In this document: piece after piece, positions 3,014 through 31,202 of the stretch
Numbering within the stretch: the first letter of the stretch is position 1
Layout: the number at the start of each line of letters is the position of its first letter
Virus record (IMG/VR): IMGVR_UViG_3300032294_001716
Location: 1 to 34,627 of that record
Strand: one strand, 5' to 3'
DNA: 34,627 nt
DNA from: a virus
Position numbers and translations under genes: made by a program
Notes under the pieces: generated by a model
Databases searched by the model: none
What the model was told of the DNA's origin: nothing
Seen by the model: only the letters and a program-made list of their open reading frames with translations

Positions 3014-3094
3014 TTGACGTATTAGACCTCGTCAGTCTCCTATCTTAGGCGTATTGATTCTCGCCAAATCCTTTGTCGTAGTGAGTCTCGGCAG
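3014..3094 (+). repeat. Three tandem hairpin repeats in the capsid gene leader
   Basis: Three degenerate 18-bp repeats start at 3018, 3050 and 3077. Each forms the same hairpin, a 4-bp core stem with a 10-nt loop: GACG/CGTC (3016-3019 with 3030-3033), GGCG/CGCC (3048-3051 with 3062-3065) and GTCG/CGGC (3075-3078 with 3089-3092). The second stem pair changes A-T, G-C, T.G, so pairing is kept while sequence changes. Hairpins 1 and 3 extend by two more pairs (TT with AG). Loops are TATTAGACCT, TATTGATTCT and TAGTGAGTCT. The block is GC-richer than its surroundings and lies between a terminator and the capsid start at 3136. Role unknown: RNA stabiliser, protein-binding array or RNA antiterminator. 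Confidence 0.7.
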
Positions 3095-3135
3095 CTCAAA
3101 GTTTTAAAAGTTAATTTTTTGCACAGGATAATAGT

Positions 3136-4083
3136 ATGATCACTACTCCTACAACGCTACCTGCGCCAGTGCAACAAACTTTTGATGACGTATTACTATC
3201 AGTCAGAACCCCTAATTTAATTATGAAATTAGGTGCGTTATCAAAACGTTTACCTGCAAAAGGCGGCCGTACATTACGTATGGCAAGATACGATAGATTA
3301 CCAACAGCTCCAGTTCCTCTCGGGCCTTCCGGTGCTACACCACCTGCTACCCCATTAAACAGGGTGGATATTGATGCTACCATGTCCTTCTATGGTCAGT
3401 ATGTAGCGATCAACCAGCAGGTTACCCTCCAAAACCAAGACCCTGTTCTAAATGAAACAGCTGAGCTACTTGGTTTGTCATTACGTATGACAGAAGATCA
3501 GCTTACACGTGATATGTTAGCTTCAACAGCTGGCTTTATTAACTGTACAGGTGGTACAAACGGCGACTTGCCAACCAACCTAAGTTTAAGTGACATTGAT
3601 AATGTGACACAAGCATTATTAAGTAACGATGCTTGGATGATTTTAGACAACGTTCAAGGTGAAGATCGTTTTGGAACAGGCCCAGTGAGAGACTCTTACT
3701 TGGCTCTAGGACACACAGATTTAGCAAAAGATCTTAACAATATCAACGGATTTATTTCTAAATGGAATTATCCAAACCAAAACTCAACACTAAGAAGTGA
3801 GTGGGGTACAGTTAATAACGTTAGATTTATGCTATCAAGCGTAGGTTCTAAAGTTCCAAATGCGTCAGCATTAGGTAACACTGTATACAATACGTTTATT
3901 CAAGGTATGGAAGCATTGGCTTGTGTTGAGCAAGATAACTTCTCAGCTAGGTTCTTATATAGACCGCCAGTGTTCTCAGATCCACTTTTCCAAAACGTAA
4001 CTATTGGTTATGTGTTTGCTGAAGTACCTCGAATCTTAAACGATTTGTGGATCTATAACTTACGTTCAACATTAAGTTCATAA
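3136..4083 (+). CDS. Major capsid protein, N4-gp56 family
   Basis: The 315-residue product has the layout of the N4-gp56 major capsid family (HK97-like fold): helical start, LIMKLGALSKRLPAKGGRTL then MARYDRLPTAPVPL near residues 30-62, a beta segment with ATMSFYGQYVAINQQV near 81-96, ETAELLGLSLRMTEDQLTRDML around 107-128, and a long C-terminal domain ending RILNDLWIYNLRSTLSS. It forms the capsid shell. Start chosen from AGGA about eight bases upstream. It has its own long leader (2999-3135) with three hairpins and is followed after 10 bp by a virion protein gene with a GGAG ribosome site. Confidence 0.93.
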   Translation: MITTPTTLPAPVQQTFDDVLLSVRTPNLIMKLGALSKRLPAKGGRTLRMARYDRLPTAPVPLGPSGATPPATPLNRVDIDATMSFYGQYVAINQQVTLQNQDPVLNETAELLGLSLRMTEDQLTRDMLASTAGFINCTGGTNGDLPTNLSLSDIDNVTQALLSNDAWMILDNVQGEDRFGTGPVRDSYLALGHTDLAKDLNNINGFISKWNYPNQNSTLRSEWGTVNNVRFMLSSVGSKVPNASALGNTVYNTFIQGMEALACVEQDNFSARFLYRPPVFSDPLFQNVTIGYVFAEVPRILNDLWIYNLRSTLSS

Positions 4084-4093
4084 GGAGATTATA

Positions 4094-5101
4094 ATGAGCG
4101 TAGTTTTTTCAGGCACAAACCAAGGTAAATTTACATCTACTGGTGCTAGCACGATTTTAAATATTCGCAGTGATGTTGATTGGATTAATGTTTATAACTA
4201 CACAGCTGCAACACAAGCTGCTGCTGACTTGGGTTTCCAATATTATTTCCAAAGAGGTATGGCACAAGGTACTGGTATTATTTATACCAAACTTGGTGCA
4301 GTCGCTAACGATCCACTAACTGTTGGTGTTTTAGCAGCTCCAGATGGTTTTTATTTGATTGATACATCAATAAACGTACCAGGTGCTTCTGTTGCATTAA
4401 CATCTGTAAGTGCTGGTGCTACTCCAGTAGTGGCTACTGGTAATACAGCTGGTTTAGCTGATGGCGACATTGTACGTCTATACAACGTTACAGGTGGTTT
4501 ACAGCTTAACGGTTTAGATTTTACAATTGATACTATTATAGCTAATACTTCATTTGAATTAGCTTACATGGTGCAAATTGTTGCAGCCGGTGCAGGTACA
4601 TTCCGTAAGATTCCTTACAACCCAATTTACTATCCAAGAGCGCGTTATATTTCAAGCATAACACAAGCTGCACAAGCTGTTGTTAAATTGACAGTAACTC
4701 ATGGTTATAAAGTTGGTCAAGCTGTAAGGTTTATTGTTCCTTCAGTTGCTGGTTCTGCTGTATCATACGGTATGACAGAAATGAACAACCTACAAGGTAC
4801 AATTCTTGCAATAAATACAGTAAACAACACAATTACTGTTGATATTGATTCAAGCGGATTTACTGCTTTTGCATTCCCAACAACTGCATTAGCTGCTTCA
4901 GGGTTTACTCCTGCGCAGGTAGTTCCTATCGGTCAAAATACTGCTGAGTCTCTTGATGCAGGCGTGGATATTTTATCTGACGCTACAGTCAACGAAGCTA
5001 TCATCGGTATTAAACTAATCGGTGGTGCAAACAAACCAGGTGGTGATGCTAATGATGTAATTTACTGGGTAGCTGGTAAATCATTCAGTGTTAGCAACTA
5101 A
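4094..5101 (+). CDS. Virion protein with two FCCH-like beta modules (decoration candidate)
   Basis: The 335-residue product is Ala/Gly/Thr-rich and predicted all-beta. Two segments resemble the module often annotated in phages as ubiquitin-activating E1 FCCH-like: residues about 118-170 (GDIVRLYNVTGG then LNGLDFTIDTI) and about 182-300 (VGQAVRFIVPS, YGMTEMNNLQGTI, VDIDSSGFTAF, then TPAQVVPIG). The second segment aligns with the whole protein at 5639, ending in the same ILS-E/D-AT motif. Location directly after the capsid gene suggests a capsid decoration or head-fibre protein. Function is inferred from position; no enzymatic motif is present. Confidence 0.85.
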   Translation: MSVVFSGTNQGKFTSTGASTILNIRSDVDWINVYNYTAATQAAADLGFQYYFQRGMAQGTGIIYTKLGAVANDPLTVGVLAAPDGFYLIDTSINVPGASVALTSVSAGATPVVATGNTAGLADGDIVRLYNVTGGLQLNGLDFTIDTIIANTSFELAYMVQIVAAGAGTFRKIPYNPIYYPRARYISSITQAAQAVVKLTVTHGYKVGQAVRFIVPSVAGSAVSYGMTEMNNLQGTILAINTVNNTITVDIDSSGFTAFAFPTTALAASGFTPAQVVPIGQNTAESLDAGVDILSDATVNEAIIGIKLIGGANKPGGDANDVIYWVAGKSFSVSN

Positions 5102-5109
5102 CATTTGAT

Positions 5110-5133
5110 AGAGAGGGGCAACCCTCTCTTTTT
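5110..5133 (+). terminator. Intrinsic terminator or attenuator with GCAA tetraloop
   Basis: An 8-bp stem AGAGAGGG (5110-5117) / CCCTCTCT (5122-5129) closed by GCAA is followed by TTTT. It lies between two co-directional virion genes, so it likely reduces rather than stops transcription after the abundant capsid genes. The same GCAA design occurs at 34386. Confidence 0.8.
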
Positions 5134-29295: not shown

Positions 29296-30666
29296 ATGAG
29301 CAATGTTGAAGTACAAATCACTTTGGATAAATTCAAATTGCGGTGGTATCAGGAAGAGCTTTGGGATACTATTGAGGAAGGCAAATCAAAACGTGTGTTG
29401 TATATTGCAAGTCGTCGTGCTGGCAAAGATATTTTATGCTGGAACTTGGCTATTAGGCAATGTATTAAAAAACCATGTTTAGTGTTTTACGTGCTACCTA
29501 CGTATGCTCAAGGGCGTAAAGCTATCTGGGACGCTATAACCATAGACGGTACAAAGTTTTTAGATTTTATACCTAAGCAATTAATTACTAGCATGAACCA
29601 AAACGAAATGAAAATACGTTTTTTTAATGATAGTGTGTTGCAGATTATTGGTGGTGATTCTTATGACACATCTTTGGTAGGTACAAACCCATACGCAGTT
29701 ATCTTGAGTGAATACAGTTTAATGCCTTCGGAAATTTTTAGCTTTATTCGTCCCATATTGGCGGCCAATGGTGGTTGGTGTATAGCTAACGGAACACCAA
29801 GAGGCAAAAACCATATGTGGCACTTGTACAAAATTGCTCAAGAACTTCCTGAGTGGAAAATATTTACTCACAAAGCTAGTGAGATAGGACATATACCTGA
29901 AGACGTTTTAGCTAATGAAAAAGCTCAAATGGACGAAGGTTTATATTTGCAAGAGTATGAATGCAGTTTTGATCGTGGTATTAGTGGATCTTATTATGGT
30001 ACACATTTAGATGCGCTAAAGCTTAAAGGACAGGTAACATCAGTGTCTTGGGAGCCAGGACTTTTGGTGTATACAGCGTGGGATATTGGGGTCAACGATC
30101 AGACCTGCATTATATTTTTTCAAATAGTAGGTAATGGTACTGTTATACGAATAATAGACTGTTACAGTAACACAGGATTAGGCTTAGACCACTATGCCAA
30201 GTTAATACAAGAAAAGCCTTATAAGTATGGTGACCATTACGCGCCTCATGACATAAAAGTAAGGGAGTGGGGCGGTGGTGCTGTTACCAGATATGAAAAA
30301 GCGCGGCAACTAGGTATTACGTTCAAGCTAGTAGACCAAGTGCCAGTGATTGATGGTATTGAAAACGTATGGACGCATATTTCAAAGTTTTGGATTGATG
30401 CAGAAAAATGTCGTTCTTTGTTAAACGCTATGGAAAACTATCGTAAAATATGGGACGATGCTAAATCAGTATATCTGAACAAGCCTTTGCATAACTGGGC
30501 GTCAAACTATTGTGATGCTTTGCGTTACATGTGTTTATCAATACACAAAGCTGGACATCGTGGACTTAGCTCAGAAGAGTTTGAACGCAAAAAAGCTGAA
30601 GCGTTATACGGCAACCAAGATTTACCAAGATTTTTTAGAAACACTAATTACGATAGATACTCATGA
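29296..30666 (+). CDS. terL: Terminase large subunit
   Basis: The 456-residue product has the two terminase domains. ATPase: Walker A-like SRRAGKD at residues 39-45, Walker B and catalytic Glu in AVILSEY (134-140, Glu139), coupling motif IANGTPRGKNH at 163-173. Nuclease (RNase H-like): Asp263 in AWDIG, Asp288 in RIIDCY, HD at 318-319, and Asp408 in NYCDALRYM. It pumps DNA into the procapsid and cuts it. AGGAAG upstream supports ATG 29296. It overlaps the exported ankyrin gene by four bases (ATGA), so that cargo gene is tied to packaging gene expression. Confidence 0.95.
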   Translation: MSNVEVQITLDKFKLRWYQEELWDTIEEGKSKRVLYIASRRAGKDILCWNLAIRQCIKKPCLVFYVLPTYAQGRKAIWDAITIDGTKFLDFIPKQLITSMNQNEMKIRFFNDSVLQIIGGDSYDTSLVGTNPYAVILSEYSLMPSEIFSFIRPILAANGGWCIANGTPRGKNHMWHLYKIAQELPEWKIFTHKASEIGHIPEDVLANEKAQMDEGLYLQEYECSFDRGISGSYYGTHLDALKLKGQVTSVSWEPGLLVYTAWDIGVNDQTCIIFFQIVGNGTVIRIIDCYSNTGLGLDHYAKLIQEKPYKYGDHYAPHDIKVREWGGGAVTRYEKARQLGITFKLVDQVPVIDGIENVWTHISKFWIDAEKCRSLLNAMENYRKIWDDAKSVYLNKPLHNWASNYCDALRYMCLSIHKAGHRGLSSEEFERKKAEALYGNQDLPRFFRNTNYDRYS

Positions 30667-31202
30667 TTTTATTAATTTTTTTATTTATTTTTAATTTTAT
30701 TTTTTCATCAGAAACACCACCACCACCAAAAGGTAAACCATCTCCGACATATATGTTTAGTATGGCGTGTCCATTTGTAGCTTGCGTGGATGAAAATGGT
30801 GTGAGCGCATGGCCTACAGATGAGCAATCAGTTTGCCGTAGCTCCACGAGTTTAAGAGGTTCCTTGATTTGGCAAGTCCCACGTGACCACGACGGCGCGC
30901 CATTTGTAGCGGAAGAAGCTCCGCATGTAGTAGATGCCTTTCTAGGTAAAAGTATTGGTGAGGTAGAACAGCTTATAGACCGCAAAGAGTTAGCAGTAAA
31001 CCAGAAGTTTGGCTTTATGGGTAACACGCTGTTAATGTATGCGGTATTGAAAGACCGCAAAGACTTATGCCAATTATTACTGAACAAGAATGCGGATCTA
31101 ACCGTACGCAATAACCACAACTTAAACGCTTTACAGTGGGCTAAGATAAACGGCAGCCATAAAGATATTGTAAAACTGCTTATTGAAAAAGGAGCAGTTT
31201 AA
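30663..31202 (+). CDS. Exported ankyrin-repeat protein, 179 aa
   Basis: Residues 1-16 (MILLIFLFIFNFIFSS) form a hydrophobic signal peptide or anchor; a Pro-rich linker (ETPPPPKGKPSPT) follows. The middle (about 30-95) holds four Cys residues (36, 41, 58 and one further if misassigned), VSAWPTDEQSVCRSSTSLRG and LIWQVPRDHDGAPFV. Two ankyrin repeats end the protein: GNTLLMYAVLKDRKDLCQLL at about 119-151 and LNALQWAKINGSHKDIVKLL at about 152-179. Such proteins bind other proteins and are often host-interaction factors in intracellular bacteria. Starts inside the terminase stop. The leader has no clear lipobox. A cargo (moron) gene is the likely nature. Confidence 0.82.
   Translation: MILLIFLFIFNFIFSSETPPPPKGKPSPTYMFSMACPFVACVDENGVSAWPTDEQSVCRSSTSLRGSLIWQVPRDHDGAPFVAEEAPHVVDAFLGKSIGEVEQLIDRKELAVNQKFGFMGNTLLMYAVLKDRKDLCQLLLNKNADLTVRNNHNLNALQWAKINGSHKDIVKLLIEKGAV

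Follow-up and report, generated by a model that had tools for sequence, protein, structure and literature searches.

The leader of the major capsid protein gene in a virus record of 34.6 kb contains three tandem RNA pseudoknots. The window analysed here is that whole record (34,627 nt). Comparison with related leaders makes it close to certain that each repeat unit folds into a compact 23-nt H-type pseudoknot. We rate the array as a new structured-RNA family, of unusual form, within the general class of cis-acting leader RNAs. It is a widespread and strongly covarying element that is absent from Rfam and tied to the most needed late gene in several tailed-phage lineages. We tentatively propose, at somewhat less than an even likelihood, that the array acts in cis to shield the 5′ end of the capsid mRNA against decay.

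The phage has a P22-like portal, and its major capsid gene is reasonably presumed to be its most expressed gene. The window reads in the order upstream gene, terminator, proposed promoter, three repeats and capsid gene, as listed below (S1 and S2, first and second stem; L1 to L3, loops).

2965–2995, + strand: intrinsic terminator of the preceding gene, with a 13-bp stem and a U run (−17.1 kcal/mol, z = −6.2)
2981–2986, + strand: proposed −35 box TTGCAA, read from the sequence by analogy with the promoters of relatives; the match is weak in this genome
3004–3009, + strand: proposed −10 box TAAAAC, read from the sequence, with TGT before it (extended −10)
3016–3038, + strand: pseudoknot 1; S1 GACG 3016–3019 / CGTC 3030–3033; L1 TATT; S2 AGAC 3024–3027 / GTCT 3035–3038; L2 CT; L3 A 3034
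3048–3070, + strand: pseudoknot 2; S1 GGCG 3048–3051 / CGCC 3062–3065; L1 TATT; S2 GATT 3056–3059 / AATC 3067–3070; L2 CT; L3 A 3066
3075–3097, + strand: pseudoknot 3; S1 GTCG 3075–3078 / CGGC 3089–3092 (one U.G); L1 TAGT; S2 GAGT 3083–3086 / GCTC 3094–3097 (one U.G); L2 CT; L3 A 3093
3136–4083, + strand: major capsid protein gene (phrog_1357), whose leader holds the array

The 3′ part of the terminator overlaps the proposed −35 box. The spacer between the −35 and −10 boxes is 17 nt, and 6 nt separate the −10 box from the first pseudoknot at 3016.

Structure and covariation of the repeat unit

The units share the formula 5′-NNCG-UAW(N)-SSSS-YU-CGNN-A-SSSS-3′, where S denotes the second stem. 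S1 comprises four base pairs (NNCG/CGNN), L1 is UAW(N), L2 is YU and L3 is a single A. S2 comprises 3–5 bp, formed between loop bases and the bases directly 3′ of S1. This pairing was found by reading the leaders of the capsid relatives among 80 fetched loci and is not evident from one genome. The initial annotation had described three tandem hairpins at 3014–3094, just downstream of a terminator. We confirm the terminator, and the three repeats read as described there: GACG-tattagacct-CGTC (3016–3033), GGCG-tattgattct-CGCC (3048–3065) and GTCG-tagtgagtct-CGGC (3075–3092). The second stem pair does change from A-U to G-C to U.G with pairing kept. The hairpin stems and loops are therefore real, but each belongs to a pseudoknot, and the S2 pairing carries the correctly placed array on to 3097.

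Units abut, differ in sequence within one array, and start about 24–27 nt apart at the mode. S1 is limited to 4 bp, as the two pairs further outward occur at background in cores chosen on the loop motif alone. By our reckoning, an L3 of one nucleotide cannot span a 4-bp S1 in the coaxial arrangement of a classical H-type pseudoknot, which hints at S2 stacking against the lower end of S1 and at L1 lying on the outside.

Several variants of the unit were observed. The second units of L004, L014 and L019 have a hairpin inserted in L1 and retain both pseudoknot stems. A single bulged base inside S1 (NN[N]CG) recurs by eye in L020, L023 and the third unit of L446, and is missed by our strict descriptor. 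The longest array, at about 4589–4740 on the + strand of L165, has 7–8 consecutive units before the capsid gene. In four leaders (L046, L053, L055 and L058), other tandem elements of different sequence occupy the array's place. For L053, L055 and L058 these elements, too, can be drawn by eye as H-type pseudoknots, for example GAACCA-aac-TTGAG-cg-TGGTTC-a-CTCAA in L058, and one of them was picked up by the scan.

The pseudoknot units are not explained by base composition. The window's leader has three, whereas none of 2000 dinucleotide shuffles reached two, so a chance origin of the array was rejected. An array of plain hairpins was also rejected: at least three stems of 4 bp with 10-nt loops arose in about a third of dinucleotide-shuffled leaders (668 of 2000), and outward stem pairs 3–4 are unsupported. 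A nested fold of the whole leader does not do better than folds of shuffled sequence (z = −0.68). By our own descriptors, which include both stems, capsid leaders hold 157 units in 24 kb (6.5 per kb), whereas 1213 kb of other sequence, counted on both strands, hold 175 (0.14 per kb); the enrichment is 45-fold. Within the window, a scan of both strands found no second array, only nine scattered weak single hits.

Both stems covary. In cores selected by the loop motif only, the two outer S1 pairs are each present in 94% of leader cores, compared with 42% for the same motif elsewhere. Among units with 10-nt loops, loop positions 8, 7, 6 and 5 pair with tail positions 2, 3, 4 and 5 in 70, 99, 97 and 92% of cases, where composition predicts 34, 61, 67 and 70%. 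Across 79 distinct ungapped units, selected for S1 pairing and not for S2 pairing, standard pairs make up 94.1% (shuffled, 74.0%) and cells with compensatory double changes number 146 (shuffled, 42.9). The covariation score of this set is 0.605, against 0.206 when shuffled and at most 0.147 when the registers are slid by 1–3 columns; related sequences inflate such counts, and the slid registers control part of that. Relatives carry the element at the same place, and its pairs do not vary independently. The earlier suggestion that the capsid leader is under selection for RNA structure thus has strong support.

The substitutions also point to RNA of the + strand as the functional form, for which G.U pairs are expected to exceed A.C mismatches, as they do by 63 to 36. 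The same excess counts against a DNA-level element, either an operator or a set of single-stranded DNA hairpins. The units do start at a promoter, where inverted repeats are often operators. However, their half-sites change freely and yet remain complementary in two interleaved stems, a pattern not seen in operators, and arrays also occur without a visible promoter. We consider a DNA-level role highly improbable.

Capsid families carrying the array, and presumed hosts

The array is widespread among relatives of the window's capsid. Of 140 distinct leaders (those of at least 120 nt or of unknown length), 117 have at least two units, eight have one and 15 have none. Several of these 15 are cases of introns displacing the leader from the recognised part of the gene or, by eye, of units with a bulged base in S1. 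Fewer than 80 nt separate the capsid start from an upstream reading frame in 18 cases, and 13 of these have no units. Arrays range from two to eight units, mostly 2–4.

We show from the leaders compared here that the array goes with capsid leaders rather than with one capsid protein, as it precedes three capsid families unrelated in sequence. Five two-unit DNA patterns were scanned over 2.9 million viral contigs. Two pseudoknotted units lie before a window-family capsid at 95 sites and occur without that capsid at nine. The nine comprise three contig ends immediately ahead of the capsid (L161 twice, L443), two matches apparently due to chance (L353, L204) and four genuine arrays in other phages (L394, L396, L441 and L329). 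The arrays of L394 and L441 lie upstream of phrog_14242 major head protein genes and that of L329 upstream of a phrog_9953 major head protein gene; L396 and L459 are one contig, and L459 is related to the L394 capsid. BLASTP detects no similarity between any two of the window, phrog_14242 and phrog_9953 capsids, and arrays are also found in many relatives of the latter two. BLASTN of the arrays against 50,697 phage records returned no match. No array was seen in cultured phages of Microcystis, Arthrobacter, Bacillus, Pseudoalteromonas, Stenotrophomonas and Pseudomonas that have distant capsid relatives, and in these the capsid gene lies closely behind the upstream gene.

Many relatives' capsid genes also carry inserts resembling group I introns, some with a LAGLIDADG-like reading frame (L029, L034, L042, L090, L099, L110, L112, L114, L131 and L158). 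Their signatures are clear by eye, though Rfam gave no match to them at the gathering threshold. The array stays before exon 1 in these genes.

Capsid relatives occur in nine of 234 Chlamydiota genomes and in two of 287 genomes from the phylum of a Saccharibacteria bin. Arrays are present in three Chlamydiota bins (L212, L215 and L218). Two of the contigs were examined and are of phage size (39,969 and 36,464 bases), and host assignment thus rests on metagenome binning. Besides those in Chlamydiota, capsid relatives (L082, L084 and L086) were binned with Saccharibacteria, Lokiarchaeota and another Patescibacteria genome; at least some of these bins must be wrong. RNase E/G is present in all eight Chlamydiota bins holding such phages, and no RNase J was found above the cut-off in those eight. 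The window has no tRNA genes that might serve as a host clue. It does encode an ankyrin-repeat protein, unusual in a phage, between terminase and portal (30663–31199, + strand), which is suggestive of a host living inside eukaryotic cells.

Position on the transcript and proposed function

In the window's family, the first unit is predicted to lie at the very start of the transcript. Of 86 distinct arrays, 47 have a TATACT/TATAAT-like box ending 5–8 nt upstream of S1 in the first unit, compared with 2% of random anchors. A good box lies within 2–13 nt in 50 arrays, with a spacer of 18 nt in 39 and a −35 box beginning TTG in 40. Unit 1 opens with a purine (A or G) in 71 of the 86. Because the promoter spacing is fixed, transcription is expected to start at the first base of unit 1, leaving 0–2 nt unpaired; judged from the promoter sequences, the start should fall there to within two nucleotides. 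The window's own box is weaker than those of its relatives, and its distance to unit 1 is within their range. The two other capsid families show no evident promoter of this kind, and their arrays closely follow the stop codon of the preceding gene. A location at the mRNA 5′ end would thus apply to the window's family only.

The initial annotation had offered three functions: a protein-binding array, an mRNA stabiliser and a put-like antiterminator. We prefer the stabiliser because unit 1 sits at the inferred transcription start. The tandem pseudoknots would form the 5′ leader of the capsid mRNA, and the folded end would deny decay enzymes a free single-stranded end. The enzymes kept out would be the RppH pyrophosphohydrolase, the 5′ sensor of RNase E/G and, where present, RNase J. 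Structure at the 5′ end stabilises mRNA because RppH and RNase E require single-stranded 5′ ends (PMC3997798). The RNase E/G of the eight Chlamydiota bins also fits the proposal, as does the frequent absence of the array where the capsid gene lies close behind its neighbour. Additional units would serve as back-ups, and the capsid message would outlast its neighbours. Some arrays come after the scaffold gene with no promoter visible; there the operon transcript would be processed, and the array would guard its capsid portion. A message that opens inside a pseudoknot and has others behind it fits such a shield, and it is the message required in the largest amount. One 5′ stem-loop is usually enough for mRNA stabilisation, and the presence of 2–8 units therefore needs a further reason. 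Also against the shield are the two capsid families with no evident promoter, the reliance on binning for the hosts, and the RNase J search of the bins, which found none.

Occurrence before three unrelated capsids fits a generic mechanical role. We infer such a role, over recognition of a single site, from the freely changing stems, the several units and the pseudoknots of other sequence in L053, L055 and L058. Leaders with diverged units or with pseudoknots of other sequence keep the topology.

In contrast to the variable stems, the loop bases UA, YU and the L3 A show strong conservation; such fixed bases could equally be a recognition signature, which speaks against a shield. Binding of each unit through these bases, whether by a phage protein or by a conserved one of the host (a ribosomal protein, S1 or the ribosome itself), might raise or time capsid translation. 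Multiple units resemble multivalent sites, and the last unit ends a median of 54 nt before the start codon. On the other side, a motif common to three unrelated capsids makes a capsid autoregulator unlikely, and the loops may be conserved for purely structural reasons; units in the conservation counts had been selected in part on base 2 of L1 and the final base of L2. We regard a protein-binding array as rather unlikely.

The put RNA of phage HK022 also consists of short RNA structures in tandem near the beginning of a phage transcript. Its two stem-loops have a conserved sequence and bind RNA polymerase; the array's units are pseudoknots with freely varying stems. A nascent array that bound RNA polymerase could still promote read-through of late-operon terminators. 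The predicted transcript start at unit 1 in the window's family is compatible with this, and a partner conserved across hosts, as RNA polymerase is, would suit unrelated phages. Terminators had been reported downstream at 5110 and 6115; hairpins resembling terminators do lie at both, but the terminator scan flags neither and the one at 5110 has a short U run. A strict scan of 64 array-bearing loci finds few terminators downstream, eight in all (array-free loci are too few for comparison), and in two capsid families the array lies between operon genes. Antitermination is thus a distinctly unlikely function.

A protective 5′ shield would offer a testable route to more capsid message than neighbouring message without a phage-coded factor. 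It might also supply a small transferable 5′ stabiliser for expression work.

Relation to known RNA elements

The array matches no described RNA family in the databases searched. Rfam 15 gave no match over 3016–3097 even at E ≤ 5, nor any for 12 related loci at E ≤ 1. A literature search on tandem pseudoknots in phage leaders, with most subscription journals outside its reach, found nothing like it.

A parallel in proposed action is with the 5′ stem-loops of E. coli ompA and papA, which are likewise folded at or near the mRNA 5′ end before the gene of an abundant structural protein (PMC3997798). These are single plain stem-loops without a shared family, whereas the array is a covarying pseudoknot repeated 2–8 times and common to many phages. 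The array may work like a 5′ stabiliser, which is a statement on action and not on membership.

Loop-to-3′-flank pairing in plant-virus exonuclease-resistant RNAs (xrRNAs) resembles that of the array, and the suggested stacking of S2 on the lower end of S1 is like theirs in topology only. Viral xrRNAs (coremin, PMC10520033; flavivirus, PMC5760640) are compact folds, often in several copies, that protect downstream RNA, a role only proposed for the array. Known xrRNAs occur in RNA viruses, act on Xrn1 and differ in sequence from the array, and no RNase J was found in the host bins examined for the array. By analogy, DNA phages could carry self-sufficient mechanical RNA shields in which, given the one-nucleotide L3, S2 may stack below S1 and the loops enclose the 5′ strand, as in xrRNAs. 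Tandem copies would then make the capsid mRNA resistant to 5′-end-dependent nucleases, a solution common to phages with unrelated capsids. We consider this unlikely, though conceivable. If such a ring-like fold were true, nuclease-blocking pseudoknots would extend from RNA viruses to bacterial mRNA.

Tandem H-type pseudoknots are also found in the type III antitoxins ToxI and antiQ and in a phage pseudo-ToxI, which are transcribed from a nearby promoter, as the array is predicted to be (PMC5086642, PMC3475682). The phage mimic raises the prospect that the array is an RNA decoy soaking up a host endoribonuclease of an abortive-infection system. ToxI repeats are, however, near-identical and 34–36 nt long, have single-stranded tails that contact the toxin, and are followed by a terminator and a toxin gene. 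The array's units are about 24 nt, differ from one another, abut without toxin cleavage linkers, and are followed by a capsid gene. Because repeat identity, repeat length and the toxin gene all differ, we do not class the array with type III antitoxins. No two-unit-pattern arrays were found on the chromosomes of 234 Chlamydiota genomes, apart from a phage contig. A search of these genomes for ToxN gave no match, but neither did control genomes. A decoy acting in trans need not be tied to capsid genes, as the array is, and we find this role very unlikely.

The upstream pseudoknot domain of TMV and the pseudoknots of tmRNA also place several H-type pseudoknots in a row (PMC4683447, PMC1168896). 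They differ from the array in position, sequence and loop length, with the S1-crossing loop of the array being one nucleotide.
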